Virus record (IMG/VR): IMGVR_UViG_3300045119_000066
Span: 1 to 48,728 of that record
DNA: 48,728 nt
Reading direction: 5' to 3' (one strand)
From: a virus
Below the pieces are notes generated by a model. The model did no database searches. It saw nothing but the letters and a program-made list of their open reading frames with translations, and was not told the origin of the DNA. Each line of letters begins with the position of its first letter. Position 1 is the first letter of the stretch. The position numbers and the translations under genes were made by a program. Positions 13,991 through 45,586 of the stretch are shown piece by piece.

Positions 13991-16900
13991 TGTGTTGCCC
14001 CTTCTGCGGGTAACGGGACGGGCGTCGACTTAGCCCGCTTGGTCGGCATACCACTCGAATCGACAGCTCCTCGGCCAGCCTTTCTACCACCTCCCTCGTA
14101 TCCTTGTGAGGCGGCTTGGAAGCCAAGCGAGCGAAGTTGCGACTGCATGATGATCGGATTTGCGCCGGGGCCTGCCTGAAGTATCTTTTGCGCCTTCGGC
14201 CAGAATTGCTGGACGGTCTCTATCGGCATGACTTTCGCCTGCGCGAGACGCGCACTCATTTCGCGGCCAACCTCCGGGGAAATTTCAGCAATGGTCTTCA
14301 GGTACGGCTGTGTGTTGACGACCGGCAGGTTCTTGTAGCCCGGGACGCCCTGCACGATGAGGCCGTTGCGGGCCTCGGTCGCCTGAAACTCGTTGAGCGT
14401 CCGCACCAGCACGTCCAGCTTTCCCGGTTCCAGCTTGATGCGCGGACCCATCGGCCCGCCAGTCAGCGTTGCCATGCCACCCTCGGTCTGAAGCCCGTCT
14501 TTTAACGAGCGCACCACGCCAGCCAGCGCCGACGTCCGGTCGAGCGGATGCAGCACGTTGACCAGTGGACCGGCCTTGGCGTTGTGAACGGCGATGTAAT
14601 CGCGCTGGCTCTGGTCGTAGCCGTTATACAGGGTTGTCGCCGCTGGCATGTCGCCGTTCTTGACCTTGTTCTCGAACGACGCCCGCGCAATTTGCAATCG
14701 ACCGTCGTTCTGGCCAATTTGATTGTAGAGTTCGCTCATCGGCTCACCGATGGCCATGCGGTCTTTTATGAACGCGCGTAGCCCGGGCACATCCGAAAGC
14801 TGGGCCGGGTCGCCAGTGGCCAGCGACCGCACCCAGTTTGAGAAACCGCCAAGCTCGCGCGGCATGTCACCGAAGACGCCTTGCATCAGGTATTGCGCCT
14901 GCATTGGAGACCACGGGGCCGCGAGCACCGCGCCCACCACGCCAAGATTGTCACGCAACAGTTTTTGGACGTCGTGCGAATCGTAGCCGAGCGCCGACGA
15001 TGCAGCGTTCAGGCTCCGCGCCACCCAACTATAGAATTTGTTGGTGTATTCGCTGGCCTGAAGGTGCGGCGCAATGTCTTGGTACGCCTTGCTGACAATC
15101 GGCCTGTCGTAGAACGTGTCGTAGTTCGACAAAAGACCGGCACCCTGCTTGAGACCCGGCATCTCAAATGGATTTGGAACCGAGTATGTATAGAAGATCG
15201 ACTTCGCAAACTTCTTCATCGCGTTCGGGTCGCCCGACTGAAGGAACTGCGTTGCCCGTTCCGCAAGGTTGAAGATCGTCCCCGGCTCCCACGGCTTCGG
15301 GATAAAGAGAAATGCCCCCTGCATCCCCTCCGGCAGCTTGACCTTCTTGCCGTTGACCGTCGTGTATTCCCCGGACCCAATGAACGGCAAGCGCACGATC
15401 CAGTATTGCGAGCGCGTCTGCACGGACAACCGCTGAATCATCGGGTCGTCCTTGTTATACATTTCGAGCGCGGCAGATGCAGCCGAGAGCATCGCGATGC
15501 GCGGCAGCAGCTTGCGGCGAGCCAAGTCCTTTGCCTCTTTCTCCTGCGCCGTGACGGCTTCCTTGAACAGAATGTCACCCAGCACACGATGAAACTTGTC
15601 GATGCCTTGGATGCTGGCGTTGAGGAACGGGATCGCCCGCGAGTACGCTTCCATCTTGGAGCCGAAGCGCCCGTAGTCGACAAAGTCGCGAGCCTTCATC
15701 GCAGCGTCAAACATGGCGTAGCGATGCGACCGGCCCATTTCGATGTTGTGGTCGTAGACCGCCCGGAAAAGACCAGTGCGTCCGAAGGTCTCCGTCACCT
15801 CCATCGCCTTGATGACTTTCTTGAAGTTGTCGAAATACAGCCCCTTGTGCTGCTCAAGGCCAGCCGTCTCCAGCTCGCCCGCCAACTGGCTGCGCCGCAG
15901 GTCCTCGGCAATCACTCGTGCGCGTTGCGCCTGATAGGCAGAGACGCCGCCAATCTTTAGCTGCTTCTCCATTTCCAGCAGGCCCTTCTTGCCGCGCTGC
16001 AAGCCTGCCGTGCCGACGCCACCGCCGATGCCCTCGGTCGAAGTGTGCATCCGGTAGAACTCATCGTCCGCAAAGAACGACGTGGCACCGCGCCTGATGT
16101 TCCTGAAGAACAGCGGGAAGCCCTCGATTGTCCCTACCTCGGAGACAAGAAGCCATTGCATAAAGCTGTCTTTCACGAGGTTCTTCATGCCGTACGTCAG
16201 CGTAGTTGTGGCTCCAGCCCGCAGCGAAGCGGAGCCGACGCTCATCACGTCAACGAGTAAGCCTGTGGCTTGCGCCGAAAGCTGCGATCCCTTCGGCCCC
16301 AGCATGTCCATCGTGTTGACGAGCTGCCTGCCAAAGTCGCCGTCGGCAAACTGCATTGCCCAGCGTTCGCCCTTGTCCCATCCGAAGATGACCGGCCTGC
16401 CGCCGCTCTTGATCGGCTCGCGCGAGTAGAACTTCACGCGCATGTCTTCTTCGCCAAGCTCGCGTATCGTCCGCGATGCAAACATGCGGGCGTCTTCCGT
16501 GGTGTAGCCCGCCTTCTTGGCCGCATCCATCAGCGTATTCTTGACGTCTATGTCCATTGCGCGGATGACGGAGTTTGGAATCTCCTCACCGATGGCAGCC
16601 GCAGCACTTCGCGGAAGCCTGCGGAGAAGATCGCGGTAGGACATTTTCGTGTAGTTCTCGACCAACTGATCGTTCACATGCGCGACGTTCTGGAAGATGC
16701 TTTCGAGCACGTTGAGGACGTCCCGGTCGGAGCCGACGCGGGCATGACGCCCAAGATTTTCCAGCCCCTTCGCAGCGCCGCCAGAAGAGACTCCGCCAAC
16801 CTCGTTCGTCATGCTTTGCATGTCGCGCAGCAGCGGGACGTATTCCCAGTTTCTCGGATGCAGCAGCTCGTTCGCCTCGTCGACAGTTCGGAGACCACCT

Positions 16901-19900
16901 TTAAGCTCTATCCGCACCACGTCTTTTTGGAAGGCGTAGATGAGTTCGGCGTTCGCCCGCCAGTGCGGAAATAGCTGTTCCATTTCCCTGATCGTGGTCT
17001 CGGCATCGCCCTTGGTTGCCGACGTTGGCATCTTCGTTGCCATCGCCCGCTCGCCACGCTCCATCTGGGTGTGGAGCTGGTAGACCCAGCGGGCAATCAG
17101 GTACGCGCTTATCTGGTCGCGCCGCAGATTGACCACCTCGGCGTTCTTCGGCTCCAGCTTGGTGATGGGGTCGGCCAGCATTTCATTGATCGGCGTCGTG
17201 ATCCCGCCGCCCATCCGCTCCATCGTCTCGAAGTCCATGACGCCGTACTGAAGATCGTCGACGGTCTTGTTGAAGCCGCCGCGACCGTAGATACGCGCCC
17301 ACACGCGCGGGTCTTCGTAGGGCGCAAGGTCCATCAGCTTTTTGTAGACGTTGTTCGGGTCGTCCCTGAAAATCCTGCCAGCCGCCTTGATCGCGTTGTC
17401 GAGTGGCCGGTCTTTTGCGACGATGGTGCGATACATCGCGTCCCAGTAGCGACCGATTGTGCCGCGCTGGAGCGGGTCGTTGTCGATCACCTTCGGGACG
17501 GCGAATGTGGATTTGGTCATCGCCGTCATCGTCTGCATCGACGGCTTGGTGTTGAAGTTGTTGTACGCTTCGTGCAGCCGGTTGAGCTGGGCCAGAAGGT
17601 CCGGGTTCTCGTTGTTCATCAGCTCGACAAATGCCCGGGTAAAGTCGGGGTCTGTCTGCCGCAGGGATTCCCTGTTGGTGATGAAGCCGGACATGAACTC
17701 GCCAAAGCCCTCGCGGCGAATACCAGCCGCGTCCATGTTGGCTCCGGCGTCCCCGGCAAAGGCCCTCATGCTTTGTTCGTTGGCGTCTATCAGATTCTTC
17801 AGCGGACGCCCGACGGTGTTCTCGACGTCGTGGCCCATTTCGTGCGCCAGATCGGCAACGCCAGCCGGACCTGTCTCTTTCAGTCGGATGATGTGCGTCC
17901 CGTAATCGTACTGACCGACCGCGCCCTGACCCTTCAGCCCGCCTTTGCGGACGGTGAGCTTGAGGTTGTTGATCGTGCGCGTCATCGCATCTTGCAGGCT
18001 TTCGACCGGCGTGAACGGCGCATGGACGTTGGCGCTGGCGATGCCTTCCGCCGGTCTCTGTGATCCGTGCGGGGCGGAGACGCCCTGCGCCCGCATTTCT
18101 CTCAGCCTTGCTGCGACTTCGTCCTCGCCCGACGCAGCAAACCCTCGGCCAGCAGCCGGTGGTTCTCCGCCAGATGCCCGTACTCCTCCCGGCCCCAGCT
18201 CTCCAGCAGGTCCGCCCTTTGCAGGTGTTGGGCTGGTGTCAAATGGAATGTCGACGTTGTCGGGGAACCTGTCTTTACCGGCGTGTCCTCTGCCATGTTC
18301 GCCTGCCCTTGCTGTTGCTCGTTCAACTGCCGAATCCGCTTCGAGGCCGTTGGTGTAAACGTCCTTGATGGCGTCTTCGCGAATCTGATTGCGTTCTGTT
18401 TTGGCCTTCCTGCTCGTGGTCTGCTCTGGGTGCAGACTGAACTCGCGCAACACCGCGTCGACCTCATCCGTCGCGCGAAGCATGTTGGCGTCTGGGGTTT
18501 TTACCCTGCCCAATTCTCCCGGGTGGTAGTGCTTGGCCGCGCCGGTCGATTCGTCCCGCAGGATATTGTAGACGTCATTAAGCGTTGATCCTTCCGGCAG
18601 TCTTTTTTGCTGGACTGCCGCCTCAAGAACCTTCTCCGCCGTTTTCGCCTTGCTGCTTTTCGGGCGAACCATGCTCTTCGACAGGTCGAGGTCTTTGATT
18701 TCAGGCTCGGCTCCCTTGAGACCACCCATCGACTTGACCCACTCCGAGAACGTCTGCGGCGGCTTTTCCTTGGGTGTCAGGTCTTGAGTGACCGCCTCGC
18801 CACGCGCCTGCGCTGCTTCCTGTGCGGCAGCCCGCTCGTGCTCGGCTTCGATCTGCGCCCGCTCTGTTGCGTCAACATGCTGGAACGGGTCGACCGCAAC
18901 GTCTTCCGGGTGGACCATCTTGCCGGTGCCCGTCATCGCGCCTTCCGGCAGCGGCTTTCTGTTTTGCGCGAACTGCGCTGGCAGGATGACGCGGTCGTTT
19001 TGCGTCATTGTCAGCGCGACGTGGTCAGGCACGTCCATGTATTCGTTGGCGTTCTCGAACGGCCTCAACGCAAAAGCGACACGCTGCGACTTGCCGTCTT
19101 CCGGACCTGCCGCGCGATAGATGCGGGTCATGCCGGACGCTGGCTCTGGCAGGACGCCCGATGGCGTCGGCGCGTCTGCCGTAATGTCGACCGCGCGTGG
19201 CGGCGCTCCCGGCGTGAAGATGTCGCCGGGGACCCTGTCAGGCGACGGCGGGGCGGGCGGCATCATTTCCGGCGTAGGTCTCGGACCCGAAGGCCCGCCC
19301 GGTTTGCCGCCGGTCAGGTCATCGACGATGTTCTTGTAGCGAAGGATTTGGTTGTCTTTTGCGAACGCCGGTATCGTCCCGAAGAGGAAGCCGGTGGGGA
19401 TCGCCAGACTTGTCTGGATGGGATCGTATTCTTTGCGGACGCCCGCCCTGATCTGCGCGGCCTGTGCGGCTGCGTCGGCACCGCCCTGCACCGCCGCTTG
19501 TCCAACTCCATAGCCAAGGATGACGGAGAGCAGCGGGTTCGAGGCCCGCCAAGCGGCGCTGCCAACCTTGAAGAACGGGTTGACGAAGTTCTCCGGTGTC
19601 AGGAGTTGCCCGCCGACCTGTCCGTAAGCGGCGGCACCAAACTCAGCGAGTGTGCGAAACGCCGGAGTGTTGTTGTACGAGAGGATTTCCGCCTTGGTCC
19701 GCTCCAGCTCGTCTTTTGCGCTGTCCTGAAACCCTCCCGGTGAGAACTTTATGTCGTCGAGGCTGGCAGCCGGAAGGACGCCTTCCGCGCCCGGGATATT
19801 CAAAAGACCGGGGTCGCCAGTGTATTCAGAATCAGGACGCCTCGGCTGTTCCGAGAGCGCCTTGTTGAGAAGGGCACTGCCAGCGCCAGCAAGAGTGTCC

Positions 19901-20115
19901 AGATGCGACTGCGCGTAATTCGCCTTCGCGCGTCCCTCGATTTCCTGCTGCGAAGTGAGCGGCGTGAACGGATTGCCCGGGCTTAGTTTCGGGCCAAGCG
20001 GCGGCTGCCCGCCTCCGACCTTGTCCGATGTTTCCGAGAAGTCGCCGGGAGAATCCGGCAACGTCATTGGCGTGACGCCTTCCGCACCGGGGACGGAATA
20101 CGGGTCCTCGGCCAT
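13987..20115 (-). CDS. Giant internal virion protein with HEMGH metallopeptidase motif
   Basis: A 2042-residue protein in the position of the last T7 internal core protein. Residues 758-762 are HEMGH in ADLAHEMGHDVENTV, a zincin-type zinc site, so a protease domain is likely near residues 690-830. A late region (about 1490-1510, AIPFLNASIQGIDKFHRVL) resembles a domain common in very large phage-ejected proteins. The N-terminus is Pro/Gly rich and acidic. Such proteins are thought to leave the head with the DNA and form a channel across the host envelope. It has no recognised transglycosylase; that is in the next protein. Its ATG directly follows the stop of the upstream gene. Confidence 0.85.
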   Translation of the reverse strand: MAEDPYSVPGAEGVTPMTLPDSPGDFSETSDKVGGGQPPLGPKLSPGNPFTPLTSQQEIEGRAKANYAQSHLDTLAGAGSALLNKALSEQPRRPDSEYTGDPGLLNIPGAEGVLPAASLDDIKFSPGGFQDSAKDELERTKAEILSYNNTPAFRTLAEFGAAAYGQVGGQLLTPENFVNPFFKVGSAAWRASNPLLSVILGYGVGQAAVQGGADAAAQAAQIRAGVRKEYDPIQTSLAIPTGFLFGTIPAFAKDNQILRYKNIVDDLTGGKPGGPSGPRPTPEMMPPAPPSPDRVPGDIFTPGAPPRAVDITADAPTPSGVLPEPASGMTRIYRAAGPEDGKSQRVAFALRPFENANEYMDVPDHVALTMTQNDRVILPAQFAQNRKPLPEGAMTGTGKMVHPEDVAVDPFQHVDATERAQIEAEHERAAAQEAAQARGEAVTQDLTPKEKPPQTFSEWVKSMGGLKGAEPEIKDLDLSKSMVRPKSSKAKTAEKVLEAAVQQKRLPEGSTLNDVYNILRDESTGAAKHYHPGELGRVKTPDANMLRATDEVDAVLREFSLHPEQTTSRKAKTERNQIREDAIKDVYTNGLEADSAVERATARAGEHGRGHAGKDRFPDNVDIPFDTSPTPAKGGPAGELGPGGVRASGGEPPAAGRGFAASGEDEVAARLREMRAQGVSAPHGSQRPAEGIASANVHAPFTPVESLQDAMTRTINNLKLTVRKGGLKGQGAVGQYDYGTHIIRLKETGPAGVADLAHEMGHDVENTVGRPLKNLIDANEQSMRAFAGDAGANMDAAGIRREGFGEFMSGFITNRESLRQTDPDFTRAFVELMNNENPDLLAQLNRLHEAYNNFNTKPSMQTMTAMTKSTFAVPKVIDNDPLQRGTIGRYWDAMYRTIVAKDRPLDNAIKAAGRIFRDDPNNVYKKLMDLAPYEDPRVWARIYGRGGFNKTVDDLQYGVMDFETMERMGGGITTPINEMLADPITKLEPKNAEVVNLRRDQISAYLIARWVYQLHTQMERGERAMATKMPTSATKGDAETTIREMEQLFPHWRANAELIYAFQKDVVRIELKGGLRTVDEANELLHPRNWEYVPLLRDMQSMTNEVGGVSSGGAAKGLENLGRHARVGSDRDVLNVLESIFQNVAHVNDQLVENYTKMSYRDLLRRLPRSAAAAIGEEIPNSVIRAMDIDVKNTLMDAAKKAGYTTEDARMFASRTIRELGEEDMRVKFYSREPIKSGGRPVIFGWDKGERWAMQFADGDFGRQLVNTMDMLGPKGSQLSAQATGLLVDVMSVGSASLRAGATTTLTYGMKNLVKDSFMQWLLVSEVGTIEGFPLFFRNIRRGATSFFADDEFYRMHTSTEGIGGGVGTAGLQRGKKGLLEMEKQLKIGGVSAYQAQRARVIAEDLRRSQLAGELETAGLEQHKGLYFDNFKKVIKAMEVTETFGRTGLFRAVYDHNIEMGRSHRYAMFDAAMKARDFVDYGRFGSKMEAYSRAIPFLNASIQGIDKFHRVLGDILFKEAVTAQEKEAKDLARRKLLPRIAMLSAASAALEMYNKDDPMIQRLSVQTRSQYWIVRLPFIGSGEYTTVNGKKVKLPEGMQGAFLFIPKPWEPGTIFNLAERATQFLQSGDPNAMKKFAKSIFYTYSVPNPFEMPGLKQGAGLLSNYDTFYDRPIVSKAYQDIAPHLQASEYTNKFYSWVARSLNAASSALGYDSHDVQKLLRDNLGVVGAVLAAPWSPMQAQYLMQGVFGDMPRELGGFSNWVRSLATGDPAQLSDVPGLRAFIKDRMAIGEPMSELYNQIGQNDGRLQIARASFENKVKNGDMPAATTLYNGYDQSQRDYIAVHNAKAGPLVNVLHPLDRTSALAGVVRSLKDGLQTEGGMATLTGGPMGPRIKLEPGKLDVLVRTLNEFQATEARNGLIVQGVPGYKNLPVVNTQPYLKTIAEISPEVGREMSARLAQAKVMPIETVQQFWPKAQKILQAGPGANPIIMQSQLRSLGFQAASQGYEGGGRKAGRGAVDSSGMPTKRAKSTPVPLPAEGATQ

Positions 20116-23100
20116 TTAGAACTCCGTCTGCGTGTCGGTCGACGCTGGCGCGTACGGGTCCGCCTGCTCCGGGTCCGGAGAGGGAAGCGGGAAGGAGAAC
20201 TGATCCCCCTGTGTTCCGTCTCCCGTGACCGGCTGGGCGTTGATGGCTCCCGGCTGGTTGGCGGCACCGCTGGACGACATTTCCGATCCCATCTTGATGA
20301 AGTGCTCGGCTGCTCCAGAGCCGTAGGCTTCGTTGAAGAACTTCTTGATTTCCGGGTTGTTCTGGTTTGCGAGCAACGTCTGGATGCGATCCGGCGGAAT
20401 GTAGCCCGTCCCCGGCACGAACGATCCTTCGCGACCGCCGCCGCTTTCCGCTGCGGTATCGAACGGTGGCGGTCCCATCGTGAGCGTGTCGTGATAGCCA
20501 AACCCGGCCAGCTCCGCATACGACGGAGCCTCGCCCTTCCCCGCCGGGGTCTGCTTGGGCTGCTCGGCTGTGAGCGGATTCTCCTGACTGTTCGCCAGCT
20601 CTGTCTTCGCAACCTGCAATGCCGCAGCCGCAGCCTGCCTTGTGTCCTTCGATATGTCCTTCTGCTTGAGCACGGTCTCCATTGCCTTCGTCGCCAGCTC
20701 GGGATCGTTGCCGACGATTTGCAGCACGTTCTTGGCGACCTGCGCTCCGGCCATCGAGTGCGTCGGGTCCGGGTCTGTGAGGGCACGAAGCGGAGCACCG
20801 ACCGTCCGCGCTTCGTCGACGGTGATTGGAGACTGTGTCGCAGTCGGTACGCCGATAAAATTCATCGCCTTCACACGCGCGTCGACCAGCGCCTTCGCCT
20901 TGTCGACATTGGTCGGGTCTGCGTACGCTGCGTCTCTCGCGGCCTTCACGTCTGGGAATTGGTCCGCAGCGGCGGCTGGGTCTTTTAAGCGGTCTTTGAA
21001 GATGCCCTGCGCCACCTTCGAGGCGTCCGTGTAGAGCGCCCTGTCTTTTGGGAATGTTGCAGTCCCCGGCTGCGGCTTCAGCGAAGCCAGCCGGTCAGCG
21101 ATTCCCTCGTTCGACATAAGCGGCATGTTGTTGGTGCCCTCGTAGAATTTCTGGGCGTGTTCTCGCTGCTCCTGCCATGTGAGTGCTGTGCCGGTGCCAA
21201 GCCGGTTCGACACGAAGTCAAACGAGAGCTTGTCCGTGTGGAAGTAGTTCTGCATGTCTTTTGTCAGCGTGACGCCTTGGCCGTTCGCGGCCATGCCCTT
21301 GACGTCGCTGTCGAGCGTGAGTTTGAGCTTTTTCTCGAACTCGGCCTTCACGGACGCACCCTTCATTGCCGCGCCGTCGAGCGCGTTCTTCTGCCGTTCG
21401 GCATCCATCTGCCAGCGCGAGAGTGACGCCGGAGCCGCCGGTCTGCCGCTGCCGTCGTCTCCAACCAGAACGGGAGCCTGTGCGCCGGAGCGAACGACAT
21501 TGACGATGTCCATGCCCTCGCCCTTGTCGCGCGAGCCGCCCTGTATTTCTCCGTGACCGACCACGTTCTCCGGCGGGATAGGCGCGGCTGGATTGATTTG
21601 CTGCAATCCGTTTACGAGAGCATGGCCGGACTGGACCTGCTCCGGGGTGGGCTTTCCTGACCCGACGTAGGCAACGCCGATGGCGTTGTTGTTGGAAATG
21701 TCTGGACGCGCGGTGCGCGTTGCCTCTCCCGGCGGGCGCACATGGTTGGTGCGGGCATCGAGCGGCGCACCTTGATAAACCGTGCCGTCCTTGTCGATGT
21801 AGAAGTGGTAGCCGAATGACTTGCCACCGCGCGATGGGTCACCCTTCTGGGTCTCCAGTGCGCTTTGCAGACTGTCTCCGCCGGTATTGTGCAGGACGAT
21901 GGCCTTGAACGGCTCGGCGTTAGCTGTCGCGCTGCGACCGAATTGCTGACCGGGCGCGTACGCCGCCTGTATTGGAAGACCGGCAACCGAGAAGTTCTGC
22001 GGCGGCTGCGGCGGACCTCCGGCGTTGACGTTGCCGCCGATGATGGTGCGCGGCTGCTGGTTCTGGTCCGTGTCGATAACGCGACCGGAAGCGTCCGCCG
22101 TGATGGTCTGTTGCTCGCCCGGACGCGGCGCGACCCGGGCATTGGCTACGGCCTCGTCTACATTGCCGCCGGAAAAGCGCGTCCCTTGGATCGCCAGCAT
22201 GTCGCCGGACGAAACCTTCGTGACGTCGCCGCCAAAAAGACGGGCCAGCACATCCTTCGGGATGTTGCCTTTGACTGCTTCCTTCGCCCACTCAATGCCT
22301 TTTTCACGACCCTCTCTGGTCGACAACATGGACTGGAAGGCGGGCTGGTCCGGGTTCTGAAGATGAGTCGTGGCACCGGCAACACCTTGTTGGTGCGACA
22401 GATACAGCTCCTTGTCTGTCGGCGGTCGGCCCAGCTCCTTTTCCAGTTGCGGAGCATTGCGCTGCAAGATCGCGACGTAGGCCCGCGCATTTGCTTCAGG
22501 GTCTCTGATGTTCTTGTTGTCGCCGTTCATCCCCATTTCGGCCTTGGTGAGCTGGAAAAGACCCTCGTGCTCACCCTTCACAGCATTGGGATTGCCGCTG
22601 CTCTCGATTGATGCGGCGACCTTCAGGACCTTCGGGTCCATGCCGGTTTCGGCAGCGACCTTCTCGATTGCCGCCTTGATTTCCGGTTTGGCGTCTATTT
22701 CAGCAATGCGCTTCTCGTTGAGCTTGGTGTCTCCGGATGCCGGTACGACCTGCCCCTGCGGCCCCGCAGGTGCTCCCTGTCCCGGCCCCGGAATCGGAGC
22801 CTTGACCGGCGGGACGTAGGTCTCGCCATCCCAGCGTCCGGCAAGGTCTGGCCGGTCTTTTGCGTACTGGCTCTGATCGGAGAATGTCGGATGGTTCGGC
22901 TTCTTGAACGTGTCGGGCATGTGCCCGCTTTGCGGGTCCGGCGTCACGCCAGCCTTGAACGCACCGCGCAAGTCGTAGTCCTGCCCGCTGTCGTTCGGCG
23001 CGTTCTTCGCCTTCCAAGCCTGAAACTGCTTTTCCTCGGTCGGATTGAGTTTGGTCTCGTACTTGCTGGGATCGACCGGAGCTTGCGCTCCCGGCGTTCC

Positions 23101-23856
23101 CGGCATGACGCGAGTGCCCGGGACAGGCTGCTTCTGAAACTGGACCGGACCTTCCTTCTCGCGGTCAGCCGCAAACTTGTCGGCAAACGCCTTGCCGTCA
23201 TCGACGCGGCCCTGTTGAGCAAATCCCGTTTGGGCATGATTGGAAATGCCGCTCATGTAGCCATCGCGCATACGCTGCTTCTGCGCTGGCGTGATGGTGC
23301 CAAGCTTGTCGAGCGAAGCGATTTCTTGATCGACCTGCTTTACCGCGTCGTGACCGCTGTCGGGATAAGCCTGCACTTGCTTGTAGATTTCACCGACACG
23401 ACGGTCTAGTTCGGTCACGGCATATTTGTTGGTAGTGGCGCTCTCGACCTGCGCTGCGCCGACTCCAGTCTGGGCTGTTATTCCGTTGCCTTTGACTTCG
23501 GCGTCCTTGCGCTGCGACTGCGGTACGCTGTTCTTGTATTGCTCTACCACCTGACCGACGCGGCCCATGATCCGGTTGTGCAGCGTCCCCGGAGGATCGT
23601 GGCTCGGGTCAAACTTCAGCGTCTCTTCGGTGATGATCTGCCGTATTTGCTCGTGCATCAGAGCTTCGGACTGATGCGCTTGCAGCTTGTCGAACTGATC
23701 CTGCTTTTGCTGCCAGTGTGCGCCCAGCTTCATCATGGCATCGCCAACAGAGGTCAGGGCCTTGCCTGTTTCGGTGTTGGCCGTAAAGCGCGGCATCGTC
23801 TGTGCCGCAGCGTCTAACTGGACGTGACGCTCGTAGGTTGGGATGCGGACGGCCAT
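20116..23856 (-). CDS. Internal virion protein with transglycosylase and amidase domains
   Basis: A 1246-residue protein with two cell-wall-cutting domains. Residues about 390-505 form an SLT-type lytic transglycosylase, with catalytic E418 in VAASIESSGNPNAV and the usual GLFQLT turn. Residues about 645-800 form an Amidase_2/PGRP domain that would cut the bond between muramic acid and the stem peptide: H656 in IVLHNTGG, YHFYID at 683-688 and H768 in VVGHGEI fit zinc and catalytic positions. Between 290 and 350 lies a region common in phage virion proteins (YDLRGAF, NHPTFSDQSQY). Long helical parts surround these. It most likely opens the murein during DNA ejection, like T7 gp16, but with an added amidase. 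Confidence 0.9.
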   Translation of the reverse strand: MAVRIPTYERHVQLDAAAQTMPRFTANTETGKALTSVGDAMMKLGAHWQQKQDQFDKLQAHQSEALMHEQIRQIITEETLKFDPSHDPPGTLHNRIMGRVGQVVEQYKNSVPQSQRKDAEVKGNGITAQTGVGAAQVESATTNKYAVTELDRRVGEIYKQVQAYPDSGHDAVKQVDQEIASLDKLGTITPAQKQRMRDGYMSGISNHAQTGFAQQGRVDDGKAFADKFAADREKEGPVQFQKQPVPGTRVMPGTPGAQAPVDPSKYETKLNPTEEKQFQAWKAKNAPNDSGQDYDLRGAFKAGVTPDPQSGHMPDTFKKPNHPTFSDQSQYAKDRPDLAGRWDGETYVPPVKAPIPGPGQGAPAGPQGQVVPASGDTKLNEKRIAEIDAKPEIKAAIEKVAAETGMDPKVLKVAASIESSGNPNAVKGEHEGLFQLTKAEMGMNGDNKNIRDPEANARAYVAILQRNAPQLEKELGRPPTDKELYLSHQQGVAGATTHLQNPDQPAFQSMLSTREGREKGIEWAKEAVKGNIPKDVLARLFGGDVTKVSSGDMLAIQGTRFSGGNVDEAVANARVAPRPGEQQTITADASGRVIDTDQNQQPRTIIGGNVNAGGPPQPPQNFSVAGLPIQAAYAPGQQFGRSATANAEPFKAIVLHNTGGDSLQSALETQKGDPSRGGKSFGYHFYIDKDGTVYQGAPLDARTNHVRPPGEATRTARPDISNNNAIGVAYVGSGKPTPEQVQSGHALVNGLQQINPAAPIPPENVVGHGEIQGGSRDKGEGMDIVNVVRSGAQAPVLVGDDGSGRPAAPASLSRWQMDAERQKNALDGAAMKGASVKAEFEKKLKLTLDSDVKGMAANGQGVTLTKDMQNYFHTDKLSFDFVSNRLGTGTALTWQEQREHAQKFYEGTNNMPLMSNEGIADRLASLKPQPGTATFPKDRALYTDASKVAQGIFKDRLKDPAAAADQFPDVKAARDAAYADPTNVDKAKALVDARVKAMNFIGVPTATQSPITVDEARTVGAPLRALTDPDPTHSMAGAQVAKNVLQIVGNDPELATKAMETVLKQKDISKDTRQAAAAALQVAKTELANSQENPLTAEQPKQTPAGKGEAPSYAELAGFGYHDTLTMGPPPFDTAAESGGGREGSFVPGTGYIPPDRIQTLLANQNNPEIKKFFNEAYGSGAAEHFIKMGSEMSSSGAANQPGAINAQPVTGDGTQGDQFSFPLPSPDPEQADPYAPASTDTQTEF

Positions 23857-38116: not shown

Positions 38117-38133
38117 GAAATCCCCCCGTGATT

Positions 38134-38209
38134 GGAAGCAGGAGCCGGATTTGAACCGGCGACCTTCAGCTTATGAGGCTGACGAGCTGACCATCTGCTC
38201 CATCCTGCT
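38134..38209 (-). tRNA. tRNA with CAU anticodon (Met or Ile2)
   Basis: A 76-base minus-strand tRNA with encoded CCA. Acceptor arm AGCAGGA/TCCTGCT, D stem GAGC/GCTC, anticodon stem TCAGC/GCTGA with loop CTCATAA (anticodon CAT), variable AGGTC, T stem GCCGG/CCGGC with loop TTCAAAT. A1 pairs with U72, so it is not an initiator. CAU could be elongator Met or an Ile tRNA that needs lysidine; the sequence does not separate them. It lies between the small terminase and the Acb2-like gene. Confidence 0.93.
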
Positions 38210-40696: not shown

Positions 40697-41508
40697 GCCG
40701 CCAGCCCCTAGGCGATGGCCGATACGACAGCGTTTCCGAGTTCATTGCGGACGCCAGCGCGGACGCCGTGAACAGCGAGAACCAACCCCTCGTGCGGCAA
40801 TTCATCGAGGAGCGGCGCGGGGAATGGTACGGCGCTGGTTGCCGTACCGGCGCGGATGTTGACCACCTCGTCAATACCGGCTGGCAGGAAGGCCGGAAAA
40901 AGACCGACGCCTTCCTAGCCAAGCTGGAGTCAATCGAGCTTGCGCCGCGCGATATGCGGCGCAGGGTTCATCGTACCGACTTTGGCGATCACCTCGACAT
41001 TGGCGACGTCTACGCCGGACGCATCCAGACCGCTTGGACCGTTGCCCGCCGCAAGACGGGCTTCGGACCCCAGCGCATCGACCTTTGCGCGAACATGATT
41101 TGCTACGGCATCGAAGACGCCGACGTCCTGTTCTGGCGAGGAGCCGCCGCAGTCGCGCTTTGCGACAAGCTGGAGAACGCAGGCTACATGGTGCGCCTCG
41201 TGGTTGGCTTCGGAGACGTTGGCGACCGCATATCGTGCCGCGTGACCGTGAAAGATTACGGTATGCCGATGGACCTATTGACCGCGTCGTCCGTGGTCCT
41301 GCCGGGATTCTTTCGGGCAATCGGTCACCGCTGGATATGCTCGCACGATCCCAAGCGGCGCAGCCAAGGCGGAATCAGTGTCGGCCAGAGCCTCGTGGAC
41401 CCGGGCGAGATATTCCTAAGCCACGAAATCCGCAGCGAGCGAACCGCAAAGGAACAGGTCGAAAAGATCATAAGGAAGATCGACGCCACGGCTATCGAGG
41501 CCGCGTGA
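40693..41508 (+). CDS. VWA-like partner of the AAA+ ATPase
   Basis: A 271-residue protein whose ATG overlaps the ATPase stop. After a helical N-terminus (SEFIADASADAVNSENQPLV), the central part follows a VWA-like fold: RIDLCANMICYGI where DxSxS would be, then VLFWRGAAAVALCDKLENAG and YMVRLVVGFGD. The metal-site motif reads D-x-C-x-N instead of D-x-S-x-S, so metal binding may be lost. Genes of this pairing usually remodel a protein complex; here the target is unknown. Confidence 0.7.
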   Translation: MSRQPLGDGRYDSVSEFIADASADAVNSENQPLVRQFIEERRGEWYGAGCRTGADVDHLVNTGWQEGRKKTDAFLAKLESIELAPRDMRRRVHRTDFGDHLDIGDVYAGRIQTAWTVARRKTGFGPQRIDLCANMICYGIEDADVLFWRGAAAVALCDKLENAGYMVRLVVGFGDVGDRISCRVTVKDYGMPMDLLTASSVVLPGFFRAIGHRWICSHDPKRRSQGGISVGQSLVDPGEIFLSHEIRSERTAKEQVEKIIRKIDATAIEAA

Positions 41509-41509
41509 T

Positions 41510-41581
41510 TGCAGCCCTTGCACCCAGCCGCAGAGCTGGGTGCAAGAACGGCAATCCTGCCGAACCGGAGAAAAGACCATG
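41510..41581 (+). ncRNA. Double-hairpin leader RNA, copy 1
   Basis: TGCAGCCC directly after the stop of the VWA gene, then hairpin 1 (41518-41528 with 41535-41545, 11 pairs), then hairpin 2 CGGCA-ATCC-TGCCG (41549-41562), then CGGAGAAAAGACC and ATG 41579. It aligns with copies 2 and 3; stem 1 differs in sequence but keeps pairing. Likely a cis-acting leader RNA. Confidence 0.65.
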
Positions 41582-41776
41582 AGAACCGCGACCGTTGGAA
41601 TCCAGAAGGCCCGAGACGCAGACCGCCAGCTAAAATGCGAGACGGTCTACATGCTGGGGCAGCTCGACAAATACATCGCGAGAAATTACGGCCCGCGTTG
41701 CGAGGAGCACGAGGCAGGTTGCCCCGTGTGCGAAATGTGGGCGCGATACGACTCAATCAAAAACTACACCGCTTAA
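41579..41776 (+). CDS. Small zinc-binding-like protein
   Basis: A 65-residue protein from ATG 41579, which follows leader RNA copy 1. It has a helix (KARDADRQLKCETVYMLGQL) and CEEHEAGCPVC, a C-x2-H-x3-C-x2-C cluster likely to bind zinc. Unrecognised otherwise. Confidence 0.65.
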   Translation: MRTATVGIQKARDADRQLKCETVYMLGQLDKYIARNYGPRCEEHEAGCPVCEMWARYDSIKNYTA

Positions 41777-41799
41777 CCAGACAGAACGGAGAAAGACCA

Positions 41800-42039
41800 A
41801 TGTTCAAATGGGACCATCGAATCGTGAAGACCGCCGAGGGGTTCACGCTGGCCGAGGTTAGCTATGGCGAGGACGGCAAGCCGTTCGCGCACAATGCGCC
41901 CTTCCTTTACGGCGAGTCCGTGGACGAAATGAAGACGCTGGCCGCGCGACTGCTGATCGCGACCGGCGAACCAGTGATCGACTTTACCGGCGCGGAGCCG
42001 GTAGAGAATCCCGCCCTCACCCCCGTCTACCTGTTCTAA
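41800..42039 (+). CDS. 79-residue unknown protein
   Basis: From ATG 41800 after CGGAGAAAGACCA. A small alpha/beta protein (FKWDHRIVKTAEGFTLAEVS, then MKTLAARLLIATGEPVIDF). It has no hairpin leader; the space before it is only 23 bases. Unrecognised. Confidence 0.65.
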   Translation: MFKWDHRIVKTAEGFTLAEVSYGEDGKPFAHNAPFLYGESVDEMKTLAARLLIATGEPVIDFTGAEPVENPALTPVYLF

Positions 42040-42053
42040 TCGGAGAAAAGACC

Positions 42054-42158
42054 ATGTTGGAATATGCAAACGAAATCGCCGCCAGCCTTGGGGCGCTTGG
42101 ATTCTGTGTCGGCGCGATTGCGCTCCTTTGGGCACACATCGAGGACGCCGCATCATGA
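42054..42158 (+). CDS. 34-residue single-helix membrane peptide
   Basis: ATG 42054 after CGGAGAAAAGACC encodes MLEYANEIAASLGALGFCVG then AIALLWAHIEDAAS and TGA. One hydrophobic helix, and the stop overlaps the next ATG (42155). The strong ribosome site and coupling support it. Too short for most gene finders. Confidence 0.65.
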   Translation: MLEYANEIAASLGALGFCVGAIALLWAHIEDAAS

Positions 42159-42361
42159 CCCGCTTTAGCAAACTCAATCCCGACGGCACCGAGTCAGACG
42201 TCCGGATTATCAGGCAAGCCGACATGCTGGCTTGTCCGCATTGCATCATGATGCCCGAGCACTACCGCAAGGACGGCACCTGCAAATGCGACGACGCGGG
42301 CGAGTCGATCATGGCGGACTGGGGCTATCACTGGAACGAGACGCTGGCCCGCTGGCTCTGA
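42155..42361 (+). CDS. Small Cys/His protein, possible zinc binder
   Basis: A 68-residue protein with ATG 42155 overlapping the membrane peptide's stop. It has CPHCIMMPEHYRKDGTCKC: two Cys, a His and two Cys that could hold zinc. It ends DWGYHWNETLARWL. Leader RNA copy 2 begins immediately after its stop. Confidence 0.65.
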   Translation: MTRFSKLNPDGTESDVRIIRQADMLACPHCIMMPEHYRKDGTCKCDDAGESIMADWGYHWNETLARWL

Positions 42362-42432
42362 TGCAGACCATGCGCCACGCCCCAGCGCGGCGCATGTGCG
42401 GCAATCACGCCGAAAACGGAGAATAGACCATG
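42362..42432 (+). ncRNA. Double-hairpin leader RNA, copy 2
   Basis: TGCAGACC follows the stop at 42361, then hairpin 1 (42370-42376 with 42389-42395, seven pairs), then hairpin 2 CGGC-AATCAC-GCCG (42399-42412), AAAA, then CGGAGAATAGACC and ATG 42430. Compared with copy 1 the first stem is shorter and differs in sequence but is still fully paired. Confidence 0.65.
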
Positions 42433-42660
42433 AGTATCTTTGCGAAGAGGCACTACGAGTCCGTGGCGCTGGCAATGCAGAAGACCTACCCGGGCAGCCG
42501 GGACCCCGGGGGATTGCTGGCATGGAACGACGTCCGAGCCGTCATGTCCGACACGTTCAAGGCCGATAACTACAAATTCGACCGCGAGCGATTCTTGTGG
42601 GCCTGCATCCCCGGGCGCAATGCGAGGGCGCGGACCCAGCACCTCAGAGCCGCAGAATGA
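42430..42660 (+). CDS. 76-residue unknown protein
   Basis: From ATG 42430 after leader RNA copy 2. Helical (HYESVALAMQKTYPG, AWNDVRAVMSDTFKADNYKF) and ends basic. The stop overlaps the next ATG. Layout resembles small phage proteins of unknown role. Confidence 0.65.
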   Translation: MSIFAKRHYESVALAMQKTYPGSRDPGGLLAWNDVRAVMSDTFKADNYKFDRERFLWACIPGRNARARTQHLRAAE

Positions 42661-43010
42661 ACCGCCGAGCCATCATAGGCGCGGCGCTGGGAGCCACGGC
42701 AGCAATCGTTGCCGTGGTTGCGTTGTCGACCGTGGCGGTTAAATCCCCGGCCCTGCTGGCGACGATCAAGAACACGCCGCCGCCGTTCAGCATGGAGGAC
42801 TTCAGACGGGACGCCGAGCGGGAGCGGTTAAGCCACATGGGAGCCGAGCCGCGAAAGCACGAGCCACCGCACGAGGACACCGCGCCGCCGTTGCGTGAGT
42901 TGCCATCGCGGCAAGCCACGCCACCGGCAAAGCCTCGAGTCCCGCAAATCCGGCCCATGCCGGACTTCGCACCCAAGCCAAAACCCAAGACGGCTGGCTG
43001 GGACATCTGA
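42657..43010 (+). CDS. Membrane-anchored proline-rich protein
   Basis: A 117-residue protein with ATG 42657. Residues 4-28 form an uncleaved signal-anchor helix (AIIGAALGATAAIVAVVALS). The rest is proline- and charge-rich and ends KPKPKTAGWDI, which would reach into the periplasm like a spanin or TonB-type linker. It could be part of lysis or superinfection exclusion. Last gene before the terminator at 43021. Confidence 0.65.
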   Translation: MNRRAIIGAALGATAAIVAVVALSTVAVKSPALLATIKNTPPPFSMEDFRRDAERERLSHMGAEPRKHEPPHEDTAPPLRELPSRQATPPAKPRVPQIRPMPDFAPKPKPKTAGWDI

Positions 43011-43020
43011 AAAAGACCAG

Positions 43021-43051
43021 ACCCCCGGGACATCCCCGGGGGTTTGCTTTT
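43021..43051 (+). terminator. Strong intrinsic terminator
   Basis: ACCCCCGGG, loop ACATC, CCCGGGGGT (nine pairs), then TTGCTTTT. It lies 11 bases after the stop at 43010 and ends the ATPase run. Confidence 0.85.
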
Positions 43052-43157
43052 CCGGGCAAAAGACCCGGCACCCTGAAACCGGCGGTAAGCCCCTGAAAAG
43101 ACTGGCAAAAGACCGGCTCCGGCGGCGACCCGGCGCGGCCCGGGCAAGGTCTCCGCC

Positions 43158-43224
43158 GAACGGGCAGGGAGATTCAGTCAGCGAGAATTTCGTAGTCGGA
43201 ACGGGCAGATAGATTCAGTCAGCG
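43158..43224. repeat. Two 26-base direct repeats
   Basis: Copies at 43158-43183 and 43199-43224, differing only at GG against AT near the middle, 41 bases apart start to start. Shared core is GAACGGGCAG and AGATTCAGTCAGCG. They may be binding sites or the trace of a small duplication. Confidence 0.7.
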
Positions 43225-43233
43225 CAAAACGAA

Positions 43234-43263
43234 AAGCCCGGGCCAACTCAAAGGCCCGGGCTT
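43234..43263. terminator. Bidirectional intrinsic terminator
   Basis: AAGCCCGGGCC (43234-43244), loop of eight, GGCCCGGGCTT (43253-43263), eleven perfect pairs. T-rich runs flank both ends (CTATTTT rightward; TTTTCGTTTT leftward). It stops the leftward sorting-signal gene transcript and backs up the terminator at 43021. Confidence 0.85.
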
Positions 43264-43377
43264 CTATTTTGGACCCCTCGCAGGGTGTGGCGTTGTCGGT
43301 CAGGGAAGCGTTCGGGTTCCTTGGCTTAAACGACCTACGAGGGGATAACGGAGCGGTTAGTAATGATGGACGCCCCG

Positions 43378-44166
43378 CTATGCTGTGACGCGCGTGTCCC
43401 AAGCAGTTTTAGTATTCCGTCTGCGCCTTGTCACGAGGCCGAAGGCTGCCATCACGCTGCCAAAGAGCCACACGGCTCCCGGGATCGGCGTGGTGTCAAC
43501 GAGCTGCGGCGTGACCACAAGGTCATTGGATGCCGCCGTCCCGACGAAGCCACCGGGGTTTGGTCCCGACAGCTCCTCGAAGAAGCCGACGATCACGCTC
43601 CCGGCTGGCAGGTTCGCGCCAAACAAGAACTCGTTGAGCAGCGTCGAGCCACCACCCTGACCATCGAGTGTGATGTTCGGAATGGTGATCTTGAAGCCCT
43701 CGTAGTTCCCGGTAAAGCCCGGGTCTTGCAGCGGTGTGCCGACAGACAGATTCGCGAAGTTGTCGGTCGGTGAGTAGCTGCCCGCGTTCGGCAGACCAAG
43801 GTACGTCGCAATGCTCGCGCCGTCTGCGGCGTTGAGCAAAGCGGCGATCTTGAGCGCCAGCAACAGCGAGCCACCGTTGTCGGTCAATCCCGGCAACACG
43901 AACGTCGGCAGGTTGATTTCATTGGTGGGGACGAACACGCCAATGGTCAGATTGCCGGTCGCTGGCCCGGGGGCGATCTTCCACCCGAAGCCGAGGTTCG
44001 ACAGCGGCGTGAACGAGCCGTTGTCGTTTTGAGCACAGCCGCCCGATGTTCCTGTGCAGGAGTAGCTGATAAGCGGGTCGAGCGGGTCGAAGGTTTCGGC
44101 TTTCGCCATCCCAGCGCCCGCCAGCAGCGACGTAGCTGCCAGTATTCCAAGCAGTTTCTTCATCAT
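43378..44166 (-). CDS. PEP-CTERM/VPLPA-type exported surface protein
   Basis: A 262-residue protein with a signal peptide (MKKLLGILAATSLLAGAG, cleavage near AKA-E), a beta-rich middle, and a C-terminal sorting signal: TPIPGAVWLFGSVMAAFG then LVTRRRRN, that is a P-x-P motif, a membrane helix and an Arg cluster. This is the layout of PEP-CTERM/VPLPA-CTERM proteins, cut by a host exosortase and linked to extracellular matrix or envelope. ATG 44166 follows CGGAGACG. It is unusual in a phage and may be a lysogenic-conversion or host-surface gene. A bidirectional terminator ends it. Confidence 0.8.
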   Translation of the reverse strand: MMKKLLGILAATSLLAGAGMAKAETFDPLDPLISYSCTGTSGGCAQNDNGSFTPLSNLGFGWKIAPGPATGNLTIGVFVPTNEINLPTFVLPGLTDNGGSLLLALKIAALLNAADGASIATYLGLPNAGSYSPTDNFANLSVGTPLQDPGFTGNYEGFKITIPNITLDGQGGGSTLLNEFLFGANLPAGSVIVGFFEELSGPNPGGFVGTAASNDLVVTPQLVDTTPIPGAVWLFGSVMAAFGLVTRRRRNTKTAWDTRVTA

Positions 44167-44206
44167 CGTCTCCGTTTGAGTAGACAGGTAGTTCTATACC
44201 GGATTC

Positions 44207-44749
44207 TCAGGCTGCGGTCTCGCGGGGGACGAGCGTCACCTCGTTCTTTTCGACGACTGCCCGAGGCCGATGCTTGACGCCGAGCCGCACGATGCGGGTC
44301 TCGTTTGGTCTGTTACGCTTACTGACCGTGTGCTCTCCGGCCTTGATGCGCCGGTAGCGAGCTTTGTTGAGCTTCGAGCGATGCGCGAGAGTACGCCCAG
44401 CGGTCGGAGCGGACAGCTTGACCGTGGTCTTTACCTCTCCCCGATGCGTGTCGAAGTAATCACGGACACGGGCAGCCGCCGCCGAAATCGTGAAGTGCAG
44501 CGCATGGGCGCGGCGTATCGCGGTCTCGCGGAAGACAAGGTAGGCGTCCTTGCCGGAGCCGATGTAGGCACCGAGGACAAGAGGATCGCGCCGCGCACCG
44601 AGCGCGACGAGACAGCCGTACGGGTCTCCGATCACAGCCTTTTTGCAGTCCTTCTTGTAGACCGGAATCGTGTAGTCGTACGGGGCTTCAAACAGGGGGT
44701 ACTTAACCCCTTCTGGCGTCACATAAAAACGCCGCAGCTTCTTCTTCAT
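44207..44749 (-). CDS. Basic unknown protein
   Basis: A 180-residue protein from ATG 44749 after GGAGAAGGACC. It has a mixed N-terminal domain (GVKYPLFEAPYDYTIPV, YKKDCKKAVIGDPYGCLVAL) and a strongly basic C-terminal half (RYRRIKAGEHTVSKRNRPNE). It could bind nucleic acid, but no family is recognised. It is upstream of the sorting-signal gene on the same strand. Confidence 0.65.
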   Translation of the reverse strand: MKKKLRRFYVTPEGVKYPLFEAPYDYTIPVYKKDCKKAVIGDPYGCLVALGARRDPLVLGAYIGSGKDAYLVFRETAIRRAHALHFTISAAAARVRDYFDTHRGEVKTTVKLSAPTAGRTLAHRSKLNKARYRRIKAGEHTVSKRNRPNETRIVRLGVKHRPRAVVEKNEVTLVPRETAA

Positions 44750-44800
44750 GGTCCTTCTCCTGTTTTTGGGACACGCGAGGGGAGCATGGGGAAATTACAG

Positions 44801-44820
44801 TGTCAAGCAACACCTTGATG
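44801..44820. promoter_or_regulatory. Second operator-like dyad, TGTCAAG-N6-CTTGATG
   Basis: Same half-site and six-base spacer as the operator at 993-1012, with the last two bases changed (TG for CA). It lies in the gap between the leftward gene at 44749 and the rightward promoter at 44848, so one repressor could act on both. Confidence 0.5.
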
Positions 44821-44847
44821 CAGTCCCGTTATCCACTGACGACAGGC

Positions 44848-44875
44848 TTGACAAACAATACGCGCGAGCTATTGT
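44848..44875 (+). promoter_or_regulatory. Promoter for the 44908 gene run
   Basis: TTGACA (44848-44853), 16-base spacer, TATTGT (44870-44875). A perfect -35 box and a 4-of-6 -10 box, 33 bases before ATG 44908. Confidence 0.6.
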
Positions 44876-44907
44876 AATTTTGTGAAATTCAACAACGGAG
44901 AGCGACC

Positions 44908-45354
44908 ATGCTGAAAATCGAAGACGTCATGAAACACAAGGCCCAGCGGCAGGCGATCAAAGGATTCCTGATTGATCCGAAGACCCTGCAAATCACCGAG
45001 TTTACCCTGCCCGGGAAGAGCCGGGACAATCTGAACGCAATGTATAAGGCCATCGGTTGCGAGCTGGTCGAGGTCGTGTACCTCAATGCCAAGCGCGACG
45101 GTGTCTTTGTGGACGAGGAGGGTTTGCTGAAAAACCCGACCGAGTTCTTCTATATCGAGGGAACCCACCAACCGCTCGCTGGTCGCGGAGTCGTTGTCGG
45201 GTGCGACGAGGAGGGCGAGACAGTCAGTGCCCAAGCCGTCACCCTTGATTGGCTGCGAGCGAACACCGCGTTCGTGAAGCACCTTCATCCCGGCGTACTG
45301 GCGATAGCATCGCCGGAAAAACTTGTGGAGAAAGTGGAAAAGTTCTTCGCGTAG
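44908..45354 (+). CDS. DUF3846-like protein
   Basis: A 148-residue protein from ATG 44908 after CGGAGAGCGACC. The pattern GFLIDPKTLQITEFTLPG, a Y/VEVV strand, VFVDEEGLLKNPTEFFYIEG, then PLAGRGVVVGCDEEGETV matches DUF3846 proteins of phages and plasmids, whose job is unknown. First gene of the rightward run. The stop is followed by leader RNA copy 3. Confidence 0.72.
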   Translation: MLKIEDVMKHKAQRQAIKGFLIDPKTLQITEFTLPGKSRDNLNAMYKAIGCELVEVVYLNAKRDGVFVDEEGLLKNPTEFFYIEGTHQPLAGRGVVVGCDEEGETVSAQAVTLDWLRANTAFVKHLHPGVLAIASPEKLVEKVEKFFA

Positions 45355-45364
45355 AACAGCGGTA

Positions 45365-45445
45365 TGCAGCCCATGCGGTCCCGGCCCCGTCCCCAGTCCA
45401 ACGGGACCGCATGTACGGCAGACTGCCGACGGAGAAAAGACCATG
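45365..45445 (+). ncRNA. Double-hairpin leader RNA, copy 3
   Basis: TGCAGCCC shortly after the stop at 45354, then hairpin 1 (45373-45383 with 45402-45412, 11 pairs, 18-base loop), then hairpin 2 CGGCA-GAC-TGCCG (45416-45428), then CGGAGAAAAGACC and ATG 45443. Both stems are fully paired. Confidence 0.65.
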
Positions 45446-45586
45446 AAGACCAAGACCAAGTGCAAATGGTTTCTGCTTTGCGACAACCCCGCCACCACCA
45501 CGCAATCCCATCCAGTGCTGGGCGAGGTCCCGATCTGCGAGCGTTGCGCCGAGTGGTACAAGCGCATGAAGGAGCCACGGTCATGA
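45443..45586 (+). CDS. 47-residue zinc-ribbon protein
   Basis: From ATG 45443. CKWFLLCDNPATTTQSHP and VPICERCAEWY give a C-x5-C...C-x2-C zinc knuckle. Small proteins of this type occur in rhizobial phages. The stop overlaps the next ATG. Preceded by leader RNA copy 3. Confidence 0.7.
   Translation: MKTKTKCKWFLLCDNPATTTQSHPVLGEVPICERCAEWYKRMKEPRS

Follow-up and report, generated by a model that had tools for sequence, protein, structure and literature searches.

Three copies of an RNA element between phage genes

We here describe an RNA element that occurs in three copies on the plus strand of the IMG/VR virus record IMGVR_UViG_3300045119_000066, analysed over its whole stretch of 48,728 bp (the window). 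The window is the complete record, classed as linear, and may hence be a fragment. Its minus strand carries a podovirus-like structural block (portal phrog_332, major head protein phrog_247, tail protein phrog_376), and its plus strand carries non-structural genes at both window ends. Copies 1 and 2 lie inside one unit, whose end is a terminator-like site at 43234-43263, and copy 3 lies between genes 1 and 2 of a unit with a promoter-like site at 44848-44875, each site being a consensus match only. Each element consists, in order, of a strand a, a hairpin H1 and the strands b, a' and b', where a and a' form helix P1 and b and b' form helix H2. The features are as follows; E values refer to the covariance model R2 described below and z to the RNA fold relative to shuffled sequences.

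41506..41562, plus strand: copy 1, whole element, from the upstream gene's stop codon to the end of GCCG; E 8.9e-14, z -5.0
41507..41512, plus strand: copy 1, strand a (GAUUGC), overlapping the UGA stop at 41506-41508 and pairing with a', as read from its sequence and from P1 covariation in the family
41517..41546, plus strand: copy 1, H1, 12 bp, loop CGCAGA
41549..41562, plus strand: copy 1, H2 and 3' strand of P1, with b CGGC at 41549-41552, a' GCAAUC at 41551-41556 and b' GCCG at 41559-41562
41566..41581, plus strand: conserved ribosome-binding sequence CGGAGAAAAGACC-AUG, behind copy 1
41579..41776, plus strand: gene after copy 1, 65-aa Cys-rich protein, function unknown
42359..42412, plus strand: copy 2, whole element, from the UGA stop (42359-42361) of the upstream gene 42128-42361; E 8.9e-10, z -3.1
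42359-42364, plus strand: copy 2, strand a UGAU(GC), pairing with AUCA via a bulge
42369..42396, plus strand: copy 2, H1, 8 bp
42399..42412, plus strand: copy 2, H2, with b CGGC, loop AAUCAC and b' GCCG
42430..42660, plus strand: gene after copy 2, 76-aa protein, whose family also stands behind an element in L251 and L282
45361..45428, plus strand: copy 3, whole element; E 5.9e-10, z -3.7
45372..45413, plus strand: copy 3, H1, 11-12 bp, long loop
45416..45428, plus strand: copy 3, H2, with b CGGC, loop AGACU and b' GCCG
45443..45586, plus strand: gene after copy 3, 47-aa Cys-rich protein

The sequence bears out the layout that a first-pass annotation had given for the three spans, namely H1, an H2 of the form CGGC(A)..(T)GCCG and then CGGAGAA(A/T)AGACC-ATG, as well as its account of the genes behind them, which encode two Cys-rich proteins of 65 and 47 aa (copies 1 and 3) and one protein of 76 aa (copy 2). 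Neither Cys-rich protein (65 aa, 47 aa) has a Pfam or NCBIfam match. With the closing C-G counted, H1 has 12, 8 and 11-12 pairs in copies 1, 2 and 3, and all three spans fold far better than shuffled sequences. The annotation had further spoken of leader RNAs, which is wrong: the copies are intercistronic, with the upstream stop codon ending 1, 0 and 10 nt before TGCAG in copies 1, 2 and 3 (the gene upstream of copy 3, 44908-45354, encodes a DUF3846 protein).

Two alternative folds are maintained

Alignment A1 and covariance model R1 were built from 31 elements, and model R2 was rebuilt from 28 relatives without the three window rows to avoid circularity. The source patterns of the alignments used for P1 covariation left the 5' flank and the hairpin-2 loop free; R1 and the patterns behind the larger set enforce P1, so that P1 frequencies in the larger set carry a bias and were left out of the evidence. 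In H1, all nine tested pairs show double-sided changes and 98% of cells are paired, placing this hairpin beyond doubt. P1 is formed by GAUUGC, i.e. bases before and within TGCAG that usually contain the UGA stop, and GCAAUC, from the 5' arm and loop of H2; it has double-sided changes in four of five tested pairs, with 87-89% of cells paired. Compensatory P1 variants include GAAUUGC/GCAAUUC, CGAUUUGC/GCAAAUCG and GAUGUGC/GCAUAUC, to which GAUCGC/GCGAUC and CUGUCGC/GCGACAG were added later. The structure as a whole is 95% paired, compared to 76% in shuffles and 29-49% when slid, and none of 500 shuffles reaches as high a value. RNAalifold picks P1 stacked on H1 unaided. The proposal that changed stems reflect a selected RNA is thus strongly supported. 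The double hairpin of the first-pass annotation is one of the two alternative folds, and P1, in which the 5' flank and TGC pair with the loop and 5' arm of H2, had been overlooked.

The stem of H2, CGGC..GCCG, is nearly invariant in the first alignment and therefore gives no covariation there. Other H2 stems on the same plan were first met in the viral record G004, in gaps between genes lacking an R1 match. Dedicated scans revealed a CGAGC/GCUCG subfamily in 16 contigs, none of which has more than four copies; one of its sequences, L460, is without a clear H1. GGUGC/GCACC occurs in four contigs and CGUGC/GCACG in one. As the stem sequence changes while pairing is kept, H2 is also maintained through compensatory changes. 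The GC at the end of b is, in every subfamily, also the beginning of a' (GC(A)), and this overlap makes P1 and H2 mutually exclusive. An H-type pseudoknot with P1 and H2 formed together was considered and, in our judgement, would be sterically impossible where the H2 loop has only 4 nt.

The two folds are close in computed energy, with means of -28.0 kcal/mol for P1+H1 and -25.8 kcal/mol for H1+H2 (mean difference 2.2), P1+H1 being favoured in 103 of 133 elements. G.U pairs outnumber A.C combinations by 31 to 5 in H1, which identifies the sense RNA as the folded strand.

It is very improbable that the hairpins are intrinsic terminators or products of chance. Chance is excluded by the covariation. 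The annotators of Caulobacter phage Percy did label a corresponding H1 a terminator; however, U-runs are missing behind all hairpins, the three window copies do not resemble terminators, and the genes continue on the same strand. Membership in the intrinsic terminators, i.e. a GC-rich hairpin followed by a U-run, was accordingly rejected.

A large family in unrelated phages

A pattern fixing only TGCAGNCCNTGC..CGGCA..GCCG matched an IMG/VR contig (L080) with four copies, and a stricter pattern matched 19 viral stretches. On the window, R2 finds exactly the three copies listed above; the next best matches are the antisense of copy 2 at E 0.0086 and a chance match at 0.62. Searches of loci and whole records bring the non-redundant total to about 139 elements, spread over more than 50 viral records of IMG/VR. 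All lie on the sense strand. The highest number per record is 12 copies, on one strand within 7.8 kb (G014), and G004 has nine copies on one strand.

A wide spread in bacterial chromosomes was rejected: among 84,980 prokaryote genomes the strict pattern finds loci in three Bradyrhizobium genomes, plus one match judged to be chance (Streptomyces, L137), while R1 has matches in 4 of 147 Bradyrhizobium genomes and one further weak match in 385 genomes of the class. The Bradyrhizobium copies (L131-L136, e.g. L176 7501-8531, minus strand) have an extra palindrome, GCGCAATTGTGCGC, between GCCG and the start codon, and two of the Bradyrhizobium elements flank a DUF932 gene of 292 aa.

Rfam 15 was searched with the window and eight related loci, and no family matched the elements at E<=1; single elements compared with cultured phages by BLAST gave partial chance matches only, and literature searches found no description of the element. 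The earlier remark that no description is known hence stands as far as Rfam and the literature can test it. The element family is large, real and absent from Rfam.

Position between genes and gene context

In 73 of 139 elements exactly one nucleotide separates the end of the upstream stop codon from TGCAG (UGA-U-UGCAG), and in a total of 106 this distance is 0-6 nt; in copies with UGA outside strand a, another stop codon adjoins. On the other side, the start codon usually lies 14-22 nt past GCCG with the Shine-Dalgarno sequence in between; about 30 copies have a longer gap of 34-43 nt, which in some of them holds an additional small hairpin. With a stop just before and a start just after it, the element is intercistronic rather than a leader. 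A search for the stop-codon-anchored architecture reached a score >=17 at 52 places in the element-bearing loci and nowhere in shuffled sequences. As a separate observation, four junctions in L465 (4021-6940, minus strand) carry TTGCCTAGGAGGGCAA ahead of the start codon, with the Shine-Dalgarno sequence inside a small TTGCC/GGCAA hairpin.

The downstream proteins are small (median 95 aa), and a tie to one downstream gene family was rejected, as 125 of them fall into 98 clusters. Flanking genes of known family are non-structural: GP88, DUF932, ArdC antirestriction, DUF3846, DUF7192, DUF6011, AAA and UvrD. A comparison of 17 element-bearing records revealed no plausible dedicated trans-acting phage protein; the widest protein families occur in at most 8 of the 17 and include endolysin and tail fibres, and an unannotated protein occurs in 7.

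Two other explanations are considered here. In the first, the element is an intercistronic RNA processing site, where RNase III or another nuclease would cut P1+H1 to give separate mRNAs with protected ends. We consider this unlikely, yet worth keeping in view. With some 18-20 pairs and an internal loop, the P1+H1 duplex would be similar to the RNase III sites between T7 early genes, which are likewise intercistronic imperfect duplexes in phage operons. The intercistronic place, the length and imperfection of the duplex, its internal loop, the freely exchangeable stem sequence and the presence of several copies per operon all agree with cutting, and a host enzyme is plausible as the phages have no protein in common. 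However, processing leaves unexplained the conservation and covariation of b' (GCCG), the alternative H2 and the conserved CAG/CGG bases. The T7 sites are without a known strand-exchange partner.

In the second, which we regard as improbable, the structured RNA would act against polarity or termination, either shielding the gap from Rho or acting in cis on RNA polymerase like HK022 put. The element occupies nearly the whole gap between cistrons and is found in unrelated phages without a common trans factor; put is likewise a two-hairpin phage RNA, of about 65 nt, that can act without a phage protein. Yet put sites are located at the start of early transcripts, with one copy per operon and no stop-codon anchoring, and a shield needs no two alternative folds.

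The neighbours of the elements are reshuffled: seven pairs share both neighbours, 22 the downstream gene only and 25 the upstream gene only. Between two elements of L286 (11759-12119) an extra 73-aa gene with its own element is found exactly where L224 (8087-8152; both in reverse-complement coordinates) has a single element, a difference that probably reflects cassette-like gain or loss. It is quite improbable, nonetheless, that the element is a recombination junction or cassette boundary, i.e. folded single-stranded DNA like integron attC or short homology between modules. Besides the reshuffled accessory genes, which are unrelated to each other, and the L286/L224 difference, this explanation draws on the P1 positions, the outer variable and the inner fixed as in attC R boxes. 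Integron attC likewise starts at a stop codon, combines conserved structure with variable sequence and parts small genes in arrays. On the other hand, the element lacks an attC core (GUURRRY/RYYYAAC), no integrase or other gene is common to the element-bearing phages, the tight Shine-Dalgarno spacing and the G.U excess favour mRNA, and shuffling is expected of any repeated sequence. The extra strand b' and the tightly spaced Shine-Dalgarno sequence and start codon also set the element apart from attC. Membership in attC was rejected separately, P1 being NNNNYGC/GCRNNNN in place of the R''/R' core RYYYAAC ... GTTRRRY.

A switch that may be set by the terminating ribosome

Based on the two mutually exclusive helices, which share GC(A), and on the stop codon in or adjoining strand a, which puts P1 over ribosome-covered sequence, we propose as our leading explanation, at somewhat less than an even chance, that the element is a two-state RNA switch between bacteriophage cistrons, laid out as a - H1 - b a' b'. 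In fold 1, a pairs with a' and P1 stacks on H1 as one long hairpin; in fold 2, b pairs with b'. The upstream gene's stop codon marks or includes the beginning of strand a. The size of the ribosome footprint is well established and provides the geometry for P1 melting: a ribosome terminating at this stop would cover about a dozen bases from it, i.e. strand a and AGCC, and not H1. By this geometry the terminating ribosome would open P1 and release b for b', so that H2 forms beside the downstream Shine-Dalgarno sequence, and without a ribosome P1+H1 would usually be the more stable fold. The element would thereby report translation of gene n to gene n+1. Its effect would most likely be to help or hinder initiation or re-initiation 14-22 nt further on, exposure of the long duplex to a nuclease being a secondary option. 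The role in translation or RNA processing suggested earlier is plausible. What the sequences establish are the pairings (through covariation), their overlap, the attachment to stop and start codons, the sense-strand bias, the copy number and the breadth of the family; toggling by the ribosome and an effect on expression are inferred.

Several observations weigh against such a switch. The calculated opening of the downstream ribosome-binding site hardly shifts when the stop is occupied, by +0.4 +/- 2.5 kcal/mol over 73 copies. P1 is bulged in window copy 2 and weak in copy 3 (GGUAUGC with GCAGACU, one A.G mismatch). The pair counts ignore phylogeny, and the stop anchoring may partly reflect genome economy. 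Simple masking of the Shine-Dalgarno sequence by one fold is not supported by the computed energies, and given the small change in accessibility such masking is unlikely to explain everything. Standby binding or re-initiation may be affected, or P1+H1 may be laid open to RNase III.

More broadly, and more tentatively, there may be a general class of phage RNA, a "cistron punctuation", that is bistable and reaches from the stop codon of one gene to the next ribosome-binding site. With each termination event the switch would be set anew for the gene that follows. Such a class would span unrelated phages of Alphaproteobacteria (soil phages, Bradyrhizobium prophages and Caulobacter Percyviruses, few of the IMG/VR hosts being known), would comprise several sequence-unrelated subfamilies and would use host machinery only.

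The same layout in cultured Caulobacter phages

A distant homologue of the gene behind copy 2 occurs in Caulobacter phages. An R2 search of these phages gave no match, and five Percyviruses have one junction each with the same plan in unrelated sequence, H1 then CGUCCAGAUGGACG. In four of these viruses CAUCUG immediately follows the stop codon. Between Percy and DCM, the H1 sequence is wholly different yet paired, and the flanks are conserved. This suggests that one mechanism may underlie the Percyvirus and window plans; the likeness is one of layout and need not reflect common descent. A pattern for the Percyvirus version found no additional viral contig. In the GenBank entry of Caulobacter phage Percy (L473 4967-4997), H1 of the element is labelled a terminator, with no U-run behind it.

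Relation to known systems

The nearest described kind of element is the Start-Associated Sequences (SAS) and Extended SAS (ESAS) of actinobacteriophages, found in cluster K mycobacteriophages and cluster EF Microbacterium phages (PMC3203893, PMC7302621, PMC12699233). Like the present element, these occur in many copies and one orientation just upstream of the starts of some non-structural genes, with an inverted repeat ahead of a conserved ribosome-binding sequence; their function is unknown. SAS is a single sequence of 13 bp, and the 17-bp inverted repeat of ESAS is conserved in sequence. The present element, in contrast, keeps only the pairing and leaves the stem sequence free; it also has a second helix as an alternative and begins at the stop codon upstream. 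The 13-bp SAS consensus, GGGATAGGAGCCC or GGGAAAGGACCCC, is absent from the ribosome-binding sites, where the window has CGGAGAAAAGACC and other phages have other sequences. Nor is there a conserved 17-bp inverted repeat, as the H1 sequence varies among copies. Homology to ESAS was rejected, R1 being without a match in the right half of Anaya (28-60 kb); the Anaya ESAS arms repeat one sequence.

In the window, CGGAG(A/G)AAAGACC-ATG is found at 41566, 42041, 42417, 45430 and 46054 (plus strand), five matches against 0.33 expected. The CGGAGAAAAGACC-AUG sequence also stands at window genes without the RNA element, and so is not limited to element-bearing genes. Other element-bearing phages have their own variant of the start sequence, e.g. 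ATGGAGACTGAC in G014, so that SAS-like start sequences seem to be particular to each phage.

As in translational coupling hairpins and ribosome-sensing attenuators, an upstream ribosome would choose between alternative helices. Compared to these, the sensed event here would be the normal termination of a full gene, and the proposed switch is a repeated family in unrelated phages whose downstream Shine-Dalgarno sequence is not visibly masked.

Gene-by-gene control is poorly understood in phage operons of small, mostly uncharacterised non-structural genes, and the neighbours of the element include ArdC antirestriction, DUF932, GP88 and AAA proteins. The start-associated repeats of actinobacteriophages have been without a mechanism since 2011; the present family is a structurally well-defined counterpart, which offers two competing helices and a testable molecular trigger, the terminating ribosome. 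That both folds are kept by evolution in dozens of unrelated viruses points to an undescribed switch or punctuation between viral genes. The same layout is available in cultured phages of the standard host Caulobacter vibrioides CB15. As the element marks the borders of small non-structural genes, it may also help to find them.

Other features of the window

A tRNA-Met (CAT) gene at 38133-38209 (minus strand) is located where the structural block meets the non-structural block. The minus strand also encodes a very large protein of 2042 aa, mostly without assignment (13987-20115), and a 1246-aa protein with transglycosylase and amidase/endolysin domains (20116-23856), both in a phage with a T7-like portal. 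A 262-aa protein with a signal peptide (43378-44166, minus strand) had no significant match in an NCBIfam search. Its C-terminus, TPIPGAVWLFGSVMAAFGLVTRRRR, resembles by eye a PEP-CTERM sorting signal, which would be unusual in a phage.

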